From contig JAUXDC010000007.1 of NCBI GenBank assembly GCA_030618605.1, positions 1-32,931 on the forward strand: a DNA stretch of 32,931 nucleotides, given 5' to 3'. The DNA is from Holophagae bacterium (GTDB taxonomy: Bacteria > Acidobacteriota > Thermoanaerobaculia > Thermoanaerobaculales > Sulfomarinibacteraceae). The notes under the pieces are model-generated. The model made no database searches and was not told the origin of the DNA. It saw nothing but the letters and a program-made list of their open reading frames with translations. Below, piece by piece: positions 8,943 to 32,892 of the stretch. Both the position numbers and the translations under genes were made by a program. The first letter of the stretch is position 1, and each line of letters starts with the position of its first letter.

Positions 8943-9033
8943 TCAAGGTTCCGAGTTCCGAATATCAAGGTCCGAATTTCAAGTATCAAGTATCAAGTAT
9001 CAAGTGTCGAATATCAAGTTTTTCAAGCCGAGT
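8943..9033 (-). repeat. Degenerate tandem heptamer array, about 13 units
   Basis: Minus strand, immediately after the ruvC TGA: ACTCGGC TTGAAAA ACTTGAT ATTCGAC ACTTGAT ACTTGAT ACTTGAT ACTTGAA ATTCGGA CCTTGAT ATTCGGA ACTCGGA ACCTTGA. Confidence 0.9.
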
Positions 9034-15528: not shown

Positions 15529-16880
15529 TCGTGTGGAGCACATTTGAGATTCGTGACCGGCGGCACCTTGAGGACGACGAAGGTCGGCATCTGGCCCCGT
15601 GGGCGACTCCGTCGGTCGAAGCGACCCGTTCCGGGCCGCAGGAAAGCGAGGATGGTCTCCGGCCGGCCTTTCAAAGGGATCGTGACCGGATTGTCCATTC
15701 CCGGGCCTTTCGCCGGTTGAAGCACAAGACCCAGGTCTTCGTCCCTCATCTGGCGGATCATCCCAGGACCCGCCTGACTCATACCCTCGAGGTGGCGCAA
15801 GCGGGCCGGACCATCGCAAGGGCCCTGGCGCTCAACGAGGATTTGGTCGAGGCGATCGCCCTGGGCCACGATCTCGGCCACACCGCCTTTGGCCACACCG
15901 GGGAAACAGTCTTGAAGGAAATTCTCGCGGGCCAAGTGCCCGAGGTGTCGTTATCCCCAGAGGTCGTGGCTGCCGCAGGGACCTTCAAGCACAACTACCA
16001 GTCGTTGCGTGTGGTTGATCTCCTGGAGCACCGGTATGAGCACCCCGGGTTGGGCCTGACCGACCAGGTGCGGGAGGGCATTCTCAAGCACACCTCGTGG
16101 AGCGGGAATTTTGCCTTTCCCCTGCCAAACCCGGAGGGCCTTGCTCTTGCGGACGCCTGCCATTTTGAAGGGCAGGTAGTAGCGGTTGCAGACGAAATCG
16201 CCCAACAGACCCATGATCTCGAGGATGGCATCAGAGCGGGTTCGGTTCGGCTCGATGAGGTGGAAGAATTAGAAATTGCCCGGGTCGTCATCGAGCGTCT
16301 GGGCCCGGAGTACAAAAACGAAGACCGCCGATGGCTGCGCCAGAATCTCTTGATTCGGGGCATGATCAGCCTCTTCGTCACAGATGTCATTGAGAACTCG
16401 GCGGAGATGTTGCGTTTATTGGCGGCACGACACGGGTTTTCTGATCGTCGATCGTTTGTCGCAGTAAAACCTGAAGTCCCGCGAGCGGCGGTGTGGTTTT
16501 CAGACGATGTTCATCGGCTCTTCATCGAACTCAAGGCCTTCATCTACCGGTTCATCATCAACCACCCGCAGGTCAACCGACAGGACTGGAGGGCACGCAA
16601 GGTGATGACGGCCCTCTTTCGTGCCTTCTGGCTTAACCCACGGACCCTGCCTTCTTATGTACTGTTGCGTGCCCGGGATGAGCTGGATTTTCCCTATCTC
16701 CGGGAGGTGTCGCTGGGTGTGGTTGCGAAGGAGGTCCATGATCGTTACCATGCCTCGCCGGGCTTCGTCCGCCTCGTTGTGGATCACCTCGCGGGCATGA
16801 GCGACCGTTTTGCCCTTGAGGAGTTTCGTTCCCTCGAGCAGCCGACGCCCGATCAGAGTTTTCCTGGAGGTTTGCGATGA
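15525..16880 (+). CDS. dgt: Deoxyguanosinetriphosphate triphosphohydrolase-like HD-domain protein
   Basis: RDRDRIVHSRAFRRLKHKTQVF, RTRLTHTLEVAQAGRTIARAL, ALGHDLGHTAFGHTGE. Confidence 0.93.
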   Translation: MIVWSTFEIRDRRHLEDDEGRHLAPWATPSVEATRSGPQESEDGLRPAFQRDRDRIVHSRAFRRLKHKTQVFVPHLADHPRTRLTHTLEVAQAGRTIARALALNEDLVEAIALGHDLGHTAFGHTGETVLKEILAGQVPEVSLSPEVVAAAGTFKHNYQSLRVVDLLEHRYEHPGLGLTDQVREGILKHTSWSGNFAFPLPNPEGLALADACHFEGQVVAVADEIAQQTHDLEDGIRAGSVRLDEVEELEIARVVIERLGPEYKNEDRRWLRQNLLIRGMISLFVTDVIENSAEMLRLLAARHGFSDRRSFVAVKPEVPRAAVWFSDDVHRLFIELKAFIYRFIINHPQVNRQDWRARKVMTALFRAFWLNPRTLPSYVLLRARDELDFPYLREVSLGVVAKEVHDRYHASPGFVRLVVDHLAGMSDRFALEEFRSLEQPTPDQSFPGGLR

Positions 16881-17302
16881 TCCTGATCGCCTCGGACCAT
16901 GCGGCATTTGATCTCAAACAACACTTGGTGGCTTTCCTCAAGGAGATGCACCACGAGGTGGGGGATCTGGGTGTGGACCAGATTGAGTCTGTCGACTACC
17001 CCGATTTTGCCCATCGGTTGGCCGAAGGAGTGCAGCGAGGTGATGGGGTGCAGGGCATCTTGATCTGCGGTACCGGCTTGGGCATGAGCATGGCGGCCAA
17101 TCGGCACGCCGGCATCCGGGCGGCTCTGTGCCACGACGCCTACACAGCGGCGATGGCACGGAAACACAACGATGCCAACGTCTTGTGCCTCGGAGCCCGG
17201 GTCCTGGGTGTTGGTGTGGCCGAGCAGGTCGTCCGGGTGTTCCTGAGTACCCCATTTGAGGGAGGTCGCCACCAGCGGCGTGTCGATAAAATTGAGACAT
17301 AG
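16877..17302 (+). CDS. rpiB: Ribose 5-phosphate isomerase B
   Basis: ASDHAAFDLKQHL, GDLG, VDYPDFA, GILICGTGLGMSMAANRHAGIRAALCHD, ARKHNDANVLCLGAR. Confidence 0.95.
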   Translation: MILIASDHAAFDLKQHLVAFLKEMHHEVGDLGVDQIESVDYPDFAHRLAEGVQRGDGVQGILICGTGLGMSMAANRHAGIRAALCHDAYTAAMARKHNDANVLCLGARVLGVGVAEQVVRVFLSTPFEGGRHQRRVDKIET

Positions 17303-17342
17303 GCTAGGAGGCTGGCACGCTAGGATGCTAGGATGCGAGACT
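17303..17342 (+). repeat. Degenerate octamer array (left arm of a paired inverted array)
   Basis: GCTAGGAG GCTGGCAC GCTAGGAT GCTAGGAT GCGAGACT, starting on the base after the rpiB TAG. Confidence 0.85.
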
Positions 17343-17372
17343 GGAGCCTGGGTTTGGGAACCCGCATTGTGA
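17339..17372 (+). repeat. Dispersed 34-nt hairpin motif, copy 1
   Basis: GACTGGAGC-ctgggtttgggaa-CCCGCATTGTGA; flanks of 9 and 12 nt identical to copy 2 at 32320-32353. Confidence 0.75.
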
Positions 17373-17427
17373 TGACGATTGGTACAAAGAAGAATTAGCG
17401 GAAGCAGAAGCAAATTCCTCGGTGGCC

Positions 17428-17475
17428 TTTCCTGCCTTCTGGCCTCCCAGCCCCCCAGCCTCCTGGCTTCCCAGC
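17428..17475 (-). repeat. Degenerate octamer array (right arm, inverted relative to 17303-17342)
   Basis: TTTCCTGC CTTCTGGC CTCCCAGC CCCCCAGC CTCCTGGC TTCCCAGC; reverse complement consensus GCTGGGAG matches left-arm GCTAGGAG. Confidence 0.85.
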
Positions 17476-17526: not shown

Positions 17527-18828
17527 ATGACCGAATGTAATAGAGTTGATTTTTTTCGAATGCACAACGCCTGTGTTGCGGCCAGTGATCCGGCAGTCGC
17601 CGAGGCCCTGGAGGCCGAGCGACATCGGCAAAACGAGGGTCTCGAGCTGATCGCGTCTGAGAACTTCGTCAGCCTGGGCGTCATGGCGGCGATGGGTTCG
17701 GTCATGACCAACAAATACGCCGAAGGCTATCCGGGCAAACGGTACTACGGTGGATGCCAACACGTTGATGTGGCCGAAGACCTCGCGCGGGATCGGGCCA
17801 AAGAACTCTTCGGCGCCGACCACGCCAATGTTCAGCCGCACTCGGGCGCCCAGGCCAACATGGCGGTCTATCTGGCGGTGATGAAGCACGGCGACACGCT
17901 GCTCGGCATGGATCTGAATCACGGTGGGCACCTGACGCACGGTCATCCGCTCAATTTCTCAGGGATCGAGTACAACGTCGTCGCCTACGGTGTCGACAAA
18001 GAGAGCGAGACGATCGACTACGACGCGGTGCGCGAGTTGGCCCTCGAACACAGGCCGCGCCTGATCGTATGTGGCGCCTCGGCCTATCCCCGCATCATCG
18101 ACTTCGAGCGCATGCGGGCAATTGCCGATGAGGCCGGATCGCTTTTGTTGGCCGACATGGCCCATATTGCCGGCCTGGTGGCCACGGGTCTCCATCCTTC
18201 ACCTGTGCCCCATTGCCACTTCGTCACCACGACGACCCACAAGACCCTGCGGGGTCCCCGGGGAGGCATGATCTTGTGTACCGAGGAGTGGGTTGCGGCG
18301 ATCGACAAGGCAGTTTTCCCCGGCCTGCAGGGTGGACCGTTGATGCACGTGATCGCCGCCAAGGCGGTGGCCTTCGCCGAGGCCCTCGAACCCGAGTGGA
18401 AGGACTACCAGCAAAAAGTGATCGAAAATTCAGCGGCCCTGTGCGCGGCCGTCAAAGCCAAGGGCTGGCGCATTGTCTCCGGGGGGACGGATAATCACCT
18501 CTTCCTGATCGATCTGGGCGCCGACTTCATCTCCGGCAAGAAGGCCGAGCGCTGGCTTGGTCTGGCGGATATCACCGTCAACAAGAACACCGTGCCCTTC
18601 GACACCCGTAAGCCCTACATCGCTTCGGGCCTGCGCATCGGCACTGCGGCCATTACCTCAAGGGGTATGGGCGTTGCGGAGATGGAGATCATTGCCACCC
18701 TGATTGACAGGGTGCTGAGAGCTGACGAGGACAAGGAAGACCAGATCAAACTCGACGCCTTCCACGCCGAGATGGAGGCCGTCAAGGCCCAGGTGTATCA
18801 GCTGACGGAGAAGTTTCCGCTGTATTAG
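17527..18828 (+). CDS. glyA: Serine hydroxymethyltransferase
   Basis: [70 protein letters not shown]; true start at 17527, upstream ORF extension is the octamer repeat. Confidence 0.97.
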
Positions 18829-25971: not shown

Positions 25972-26005
25972 GCTGTTAACTATTAGCTTTTGGCCATTAG
26001 CAATA
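25971..26005 (-). repeat. Degenerate heptamer array, left arm of a paired inverted array
   Basis: AGCTGTT AACTATT AGCTTTT GGCCATT AGCAATA, overlapping the last base of the wbpD-like TAA; reverse complement reads GCTAATG GCCAAAA GCTAATA GTTAACA GCT. Confidence 0.85.
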
Positions 26006-26084
26006 CACGGCACGACTCTTGTGTGCAATACGGGCTGTAATTTTTCCGAATGAATTTGAATCGTCTCCAAGAACCTATCTTCGA

Positions 26085-26122
26085 GCTAAACGCTAAAAGC
26101 TAAAAGCTAACGGCTAATAGCT
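26085..26122 (+). repeat. Degenerate heptamer array, right arm (inverted relative to 25971-26005)
   Basis: GCTAAAC GCTAAAA GCTAAAA GCTAACG GCTAATA GCT. Confidence 0.9.
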
Positions 26123-26176
26123 CGCAAATGGGGCAGGAATCTCTTTGCTTCCGGCTTCGCCGGGTTAGGATGGATC

Positions 26177-32319: not shown

Positions 32320-32353
32320 GACTGGAGCGCGGGGCTCCTGCCCCGCATTGTGA
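32320..32353 (+). repeat. Dispersed 34-nt hairpin motif, copy 2
   Basis: GACTGGAGC-gcggggctcctgc-CCCGCATTGTGA; stem GCGGGGC-TCCT-GCCCCGC. Confidence 0.75.
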
Positions 32354-32818: not shown

Positions 32819-32892
32819 GTGGAGCCGAACGGGATCGAACCGTCGACCTCCTGAATGCCATTCAGGCGCTCTCCCAACTGAGCTACGGCCCC
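32817..32892 (-). tRNA. tRNA-Ala (anticodon GGC), CCA encoded
   Basis: Minus strand GGGGCCG TA GCTC AGTTGGGA GAGC G CCTGA ATGGCAT TCAGG AGGTC GACGG TTCGATC CCGTT CGGCTCC A CCA; G3:U70 pair present. Confidence 0.96.

Follow-up and report, generated by a model that had tools for sequence, protein, structure and literature searches.

Intergenic arrays of short tandem repeats are known from earlier work, as is the S23/IVP protein, and for neither is there an agreed function. The STRRs of cyanobacteria have been described as repeats without a parent element. The intervening sequence (IVS) of the Coxiella burnetii 23S rRNA is 428 nt long, with tandem heptamers before its S23 ORF and inverted ends of 28 bp (PMC4990558). 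In Xanthomonas, arrays of a GGGAATC heptamer form convergent pairs, 70 and 75 cases being described with no function known; the authors generally found no association with mobile elements and report stable flanks (PMC4692102). The TAACTGA repeats of Beggiatoaceae are intergenic heptamers as well, patchy in their distribution, and horizontal spread has been suggested for them (PMC4679880).

Here we consider a pair of inverted octamer arrays behind rpiB in a Holophagae bacterium of the family Sulfomarinibacteraceae, within a window (the whole stretch of DNA that was analysed) of 32,931 nucleotides. We think it probable that this insert, which measures 173 nt in all between rpiB and glyA (Table 1), is a small, gene-less member of a dispersed family of array-bounded inserts related to IVP elements. 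The initial annotation of this DNA had described octamer arrays of opposite orientation after the rpiB TAG, with the left arm beginning on the very next base, and its anatomy is borne out by the sequence, a position-weight scan and shuffles. The stop codon occupies 17300–17302 and the first octamer runs from 17303, a gap of 0 nt; the scan finds exactly 2 octamer arrays in the 33-kb window, at 17303–17334 on the plus strand and 17428–17475 on the minus strand (scores 39 and 50), and among 60 dinucleotide-shuffled versions of the window no array scored above 18 and no convergent pair arose. The inverted arms thus stand, while the original count of 5 + 6 units around a core at 17343–17427 is corrected to 4 + 5 units and a 101-bp core, because GCGAGACT (17335–17342) and TTTCCTGC, the reverse complement of GCAGGAAA (17428–17435), match the core start found beside many other arrays of the genus (GCARGACGGGAGCGC). 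No other copy of the window core was found in four same-genus genomes (G000–G003), and what the window copy has in common with other copies is its arms and the core edge only. A single mobile core copied around the genome was rejected as an explanation, since the core is unique and core–core matches among copies are few. The sole Rfam match over the window is a tRNA at 32820–32892.

Table 1. Positions, in the window, of the parts of the insert behind rpiB, its neighbouring genes and a second paired element.
Feature	Position	Strand	Basis or remark
rpiB, upstream gene	16877–17302	+	ORF list; orthologues in all relatives searched
Left arm, 4 octamers: GCTAGGAG GCTGGCAC GCTAGGAT GCTAGGAT	17303–17334	+	Sequence, scan, shuffles
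Core, 101 bp, between arms	17335–17435		Genus search (G000–G003); ORF list
Core-start motif GCGAGACTGGAGCC, compare GCARGACGGGAGCGC beside other arrays	17335–17348	+	
Dispersed hairpin repeat, diverged copy: GGAGC, stem-loop (17350–17363), GCATTGTGA	17343–17372	+	Pattern scan
Mirrored core edge, reverse complement of GCAGGAAA	17428–17435	-	Sequence
Right arm, 5 octamers: CTTCTGGC CTCCCAGC CCCCCAGC CTCCTGGC TTCCCAGC	17436–17475	-	Sequence, scan
glyA, downstream gene	17527–18828	+	Start set by homology with G001/G003
Second paired element, left arm, TTAGCT-type 7-mer	25972–26001		Directly behind TAA 25969–25971
Second paired element, right arm, AGCTAAA-type, inverse of left	26084–26124		

The second paired element of the window (25972–26124) has an 82-bp gap between its arms, and in G002, where its flanks adjoin directly, it is missing. 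At 8943–9019 the window also holds an array of TCAAGTA-like 7-mers with no inverted mate within 500 bp.

The octamer behind rpiB is dispersed through the genome and its relatives. An exact double octamer, GCTRGGADGCTRGGAD, has 64 exact matches genome-wide versus 0 for the reversed pattern, and a 24-mer allowed 3 mismatches has 336 versus 4. In three same-genus genomes the exact double octamer matches 26, 30 and 11 times; elsewhere in the family and order the majority of genomes have none, but it does occur in a further genus of the family (G011) and, within the class, in two further families (G040, G058). Counts in the window genome rest on pattern searches together with fetched stretches, in which 68 arrays were found. 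Neighbouring arrays in these stretches form at least 17 convergent pairs, 2 divergent and 1 direct, with the near-identical neighbourhoods L091 and L106 on two contigs counted once; with the sister genomes included, 21 pairs are '+-', 2 '-+', 3 '++' and 0 '--'. A lack of other paired arrays in the genome had been named as a possible refutation, and in looking for it we found many. No mate was detected for about half of the arrays, partly owing to contig ends, where arrays often lie, so that unpaired arrays are over-counted. In G058, from another family of the class, the octamers (L164–L174) are for the most part arranged as divergent '-+' pairs (CTCC..GGAG) that have short gaps and end in GCTAC/GCTAT-like motifs, and these were kept apart from the convergent class. 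A further dispersed repeat is of the CGCAAAGA/CACGAAG type; present in the flank of L104 (query part 2865–2988), it has dozens of matches in each of the three sister genomes.

Behind the array, at least three other loci (L099, L115, L118) have GCARGACGGGAGCGC, then a hairpin and then GCAYYGTGA, an arrangement of which the window core holds a diverged copy; the GCARGAC core edge is absent from the IVP copy L085. A common core-edge sequence beside arrays at unrelated sites contradicts the view, familiar for STRRs and microsatellites, that such repeats are immobile products of polymerase slippage in situ. Slippage has been put forward for bacterial 7-mers (PMC4692102), and copy number and higher-order repeats do vary within arrays (L086, L105), but slippage does not explain why one unit recurs in over 60 places and in matching inverted pairs, nor does it account for the sharply empty sites and the unit common to one IVP clade across phyla that are described below. 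As an account of the whole insert we hold it very improbable.

Inverted doublets behind genes could also be produced if the insert were a non-autonomous REPIN- or BIME-like element that a RAYT (Y1 transposase) mobilises, and both the REP-like hairpin in the core and the 4 Y1_Tnp matches in the window genome are in keeping with this. However, no Y1_Tnp match was obtained in G001 or G002, which are both incomplete and both have arrays, no octamer pair frames the Y1 genes of G000, and the arms are tandem octamers, not single palindromes. Since it is missing from G001 and G002, a RAYT/Y1 transposase is rejected as the consistent partner, and we consider a REPIN-like origin improbable. The REP-like hairpin is itself dispersed, with the form GGAGCGC-stem-(C)TCC loop-stem-GCAYYGTGA at window position 32325 and in L099, L115, L118, L125, L144, L148, L156, L159 and L163; its stems vary among copies, and the GGAG in front could form a pseudoknot with the CUCC of the loop.

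Comparison with relatives bears on whether the arrays have moved. In G001 and G003, members of the same genus with RpiB 92% identical, the rpiB–glyA spacer is roughly 40–50 bp long and has no array, and it is about 15–45 bp long and array-free wherever else in the family the junction was readable. The absence of the array pair from this spacer in relatives indicates that the insert behind rpiB is a recent insertion that arose in this genome's lineage. The alternative of an ancestral spacer with no empty-site alleles, which had also been named as a possible refutation, was looked for, and the empty sites in G001 and G003 speak against it.

Insertion polymorphism is not confined to rpiB. The flanks of 16 paired elements were searched in G001–G003 and then compared. 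L092 (280 bp) corresponds to 9 bp in G002, L103 (698 bp, with a toxin–antitoxin pair) to 8 bp in G003 and L108 (229 bp) to 10 bp in G002, these three empty sites being about 10 nt long and array-free. L088 (247 bp) corresponds to 46 bp in G002, L085 (622 bp, with IVP) to 22 bp in G001 and to 49 bp with short arrays in G003, and L087 has arrays in all four genomes, of unlike lengths. The site comparison across sister genomes thus indicates that elements are gained and lost and that arrays can stay without a core; arrays and cargo can come apart, the L085 site of G003 having short arrays and no gene. About seven comparisons with empty or near-empty sites revealed no target-site duplication, nor was one seen at rpiB–glyA. 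At L310, L320, L337 and L351, the place of an octamer element of the window genome may be taken in sister genomes by a different small repeat (AGCTGTC 7-mers, for example), a reuse of intergenic sites.

If short, core-less inverted arrays were the basal state, with IVP or other cassettes entering at the hairpin tip, then the arrays would be targets or stems and not moving ends. The nearly core-less convergent pairs L087 (core 4 nt) and L145 (core 10 nt) suit such a scheme, as do the L085 site, with its short arrays lacking the IVP core in G003 and a 22-bp remnant in G001, and the rRNA IVSs, which replace helix tetraloops (PMC4990558). Cognate targeting would likewise tie a unit to an IVP lineage. 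On the other hand, insertion at hairpin tips presupposes that an inverted array of the right unit already stood at every site, and the empty sites of L092, L103 and L108 are array-free. We regard it as unlikely, and as the main rival to the array-bounded moving inserts that we favour.

The start directly behind a stop codon, first remarked for the window copy, is a general trend among arrays. Outer array edges lie 10 nt or less from the stop of a long ORF reading towards them in 28 of 106 cases in the genus (control 2), and IVP arrays lie 12 nt or less from such a stop in 36 of 136 (control 1), a contrast that is exaggerated by a control taken 150 bp outward and often inside an ORF. Even so, the edges of the octamer set cluster strikingly at 0–12 nt after the stop, with none at 13–25 nt. 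REPs are likewise found mostly within 20 bp of ORF 3' ends (PMC3733652), and by analogy the stop-codon placement may reflect tolerance rather than targeting.

This position, together with arms that can fold, would also suit an RNA or DNA hairpin kept by selection, be it a terminator, an mRNA stabiliser or an RNase III site. The insert has an MFE of −70.5 kcal/mol (z −2.0 on the plus strand and −1.2 on the minus strand), so the earlier statement that the arms are able to pair holds as far as foldability goes. That their pairing is favoured does not hold: two arms taken from one element resemble and complement each other less than do two arms taken from different elements (duplex −1.41 vs −1.54 kcal/mol per nt, >3 sd, in a comparison of 21 elements that was found after looking). 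Scans for sigma-70 promoters and terminators gave no match at the insert site, which has no T-tract, and the insert is absent from sister genomes. With z only −2.0 and −1.2 and arm pairing not maintained, a functional hairpin is disfavoured, and we give it very little credence. The data would instead fit an avoidance of long perfect hairpins, not a conserved RNA structure; in REP dimers, too, unlike partners are preferred (PMC3733652).

The cores of L085 and of L177, the latter in G040 from another family, contain a PF05635/TIGR02436 four-helix-bundle gene. Its product is IVP (S23), the protein of 23S rRNA intervening sequences, for which we know of no catalytic function. A PF05635 ORF is likewise present at the other paired-array PF05635 loci and, according to the ORF list, absent from the core of the window copy. 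L103 carries a ParE-type toxin with a small TraY-like partner and L104 a HicA-type toxin with a HicB/UPF0150-like partner, and the cores of L086 and L176 hold ORFs without a family. Inside matching ends, IVP is the only candidate parent gene; no transposase was found there.

The association between IVP and arrays extends across phyla. PF05635 genes were gathered regardless of repeats, as 30 loci plus 40 from the same list and as 80 loci from a scan of 85,462 species, the profile for which was built from loci mostly with arrays; several loci come from one genome, and L191 and L356 are one gene. With a detector of periods 6–10 in which both units must match as reverse complements with at most 1 mismatch, inverted arrays bracket 49 of 64 PF05635 genes in the class and 23 of 73 across phyla, and, as a control, 1 of 176 windows displaced by 900 bp. 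With an earlier version of this test the figures were 25/80 vs 0/129, and 1/29 for rpiB loci. When the left flank was aligned with the reverse complement of the right, irrespective of period, 55 of 63 loci in the class and 40 of 73 others lay above the 99% null obtained from mismatched flank pairs. Arrays at these loci are mostly 360–530 bp apart, with periods mainly of 7, then 8 and 9.

On complete plasmids of Nostoc, Pseudanabaena and Anabaena, a PF05635 gene with its arrays is inserted between genes of one operon, at sites that include Cas10–Cmr3 and two ribonucleotide reductase subunits; several of the eight cyanobacterial plasmid loci have a clear array on one side only. In L399, L404 and L406, all from such plasmids, the gene lies with 7- or 8-mer arrays amid CRISPR genes (Cas10/Cmr3, Cas6/Cas4). 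These insertions may explain the reported CRISPR links of IVP.

Unit and protein are co-inherited. The more alike two IVPs are, the more alike are their units (Mantel p = 0.0005, 7-mers): at 60–80% IVP identity a pair has 0.81 of the unit in common, whereas distant pairs have about 0.5. The IVPs that go with GCTGGGA-type octamers, five in number, fall into a single clade (SH-aLRT 98), with members from the window genome, two in G040, and one each from a Desulfobacterales and a Deltaproteobacteria genome; the last two (L214, L215) were retrieved by protein similarity alone, and their octamers were found afterwards. The unit of the window insert is the GCTGGGA octamer, as in the IVP lineage of its genome. 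That the unit tracks the protein argues, on the sequence comparisons, that the arrays are part of an IVP element or specifically bound to it.

In the array-bounded family that we favour, a core lies between two convergent arrays of one degenerate 7–9-nt unit, usually behind a stop codon, and members of full size hold a single small gene, in the typical case a PF05635 IVP, with toxin–antitoxin pairs among the alternative cargoes. The unit belongs to the element lineage, with GCTGGGA octamers accompanying one IVP clade of this class and Desulfobacterota. Beyond what the sequences show, namely the anatomy, the dispersal of the family, its insertion polymorphism and the co-inherited association of IVP with arrays, we infer that the arrays are the element's ends, that the inserts move as units or by these ends, in trans through further machinery for which IVP is a candidate partner, and that array length changes later by slippage. 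IVP resembles Avd, the accessory protein of diversity-generating retroelements (PMC10053308), which makes an RNA or reverse-transcription step in this movement conceivable by analogy; the Avd matches of IVP in our profile comparison of cargo are weak. Several observations count against this explanation, namely that the gene-less window copy has a core seen in no other copy, in contrast to MITEs amplified from a single parent, that L085 lacks the GCARGAC edge, that target-site duplications were not seen, that about half of the arrays are mateless, and that the L085 site of G003 has arrays without the gene.

A wider proposal seems to us possible, and we advance it tentatively: inverted 7–9-mer arrays may be the ends of widespread mobile cassettes with IVP as their own gene and a cognate unit for each IVP lineage, non-IVP and gene-less copies being mobilised in trans, which would explain rRNA IVSs, STRRs and Xanthomonas heptamers together. 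A unit mirrored about the IVP gene and tracking the IVP lineage across phyla ties arrays and protein together, and the link raises a direct test, that of an IVP protein recognising its own unit. It would give many unexplained intergenic repeats, including two in the window, a likely origin, and would explain the small IVP gene inside unrelated operons (CRISPR, ribonucleotide reductase).

The initial claim that no standard class fits the insert is right for REP, MITE, CRISPR and attC, but paired convergent arrays of short units do have precedent in Xanthomonas and in the Coxiella IVS. Like REP, BIME and REPIN sequences, the inserts are inverted doublets in many copies near ORF 3' ends, with unlike dimer partners (PMC3733652); those elements are single palindromes with a GTAG or CGTC tag and in part a RAYT, whereas the insert consists of tandem arrays. 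Like a MITE, it is small and non-coding, with inverted ends and insertion polymorphism, but no target duplication was seen and cores are not homologous among copies. CRISPR is excluded, as the units adjoin without spacers and the arms are inverted, and no RYYYAAC/GTTRRRY (integron attC) sites were noticed by eye.

Among short tandem repeats, the TAACTGA repeats of Beggiatoaceae differ in being direct repeats before start codons, with one inverted case only (PMC4679880). The Xanthomonas arrays, like ours, consist of degenerate short G-rich units in intergenic convergent pairs; they and the STRRs have a period of 7, whereas the window unit has a period of 8, and, unlike in the insert family, no link to IVP is reported for the Xanthomonas heptamers in the available part of that paper (PMC4692102). 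The cyanobacterial STRRs are short tandem 7-mers, and such arrays frame PF05635 genes on the plasmids of Nostoc, Anabaena and Pseudanabaena. In the open-access literature we found no paper with these octamer strings or joining PF05635/IVP genes to matching flanking arrays; arrays and IVSs are each known, and their joining in one probable mobile family was not found there. The inserts differ from rRNA IVSs in having arrays of 7–9-mers as ends and sites between protein genes, not in rRNA, and the window copy, between rpiB and glyA, differs further in its gene-less core of 101 bp. Nevertheless, full-size members resemble the 23S rRNA IVS of Coxiella in a PF05635-type protein and a core of about 430 bp and in tandem heptamers beside the ORF whose number varies among strains (PMC4990558), and the terminal inverted repeats around a core are a likeness that extends to the window copy as well.
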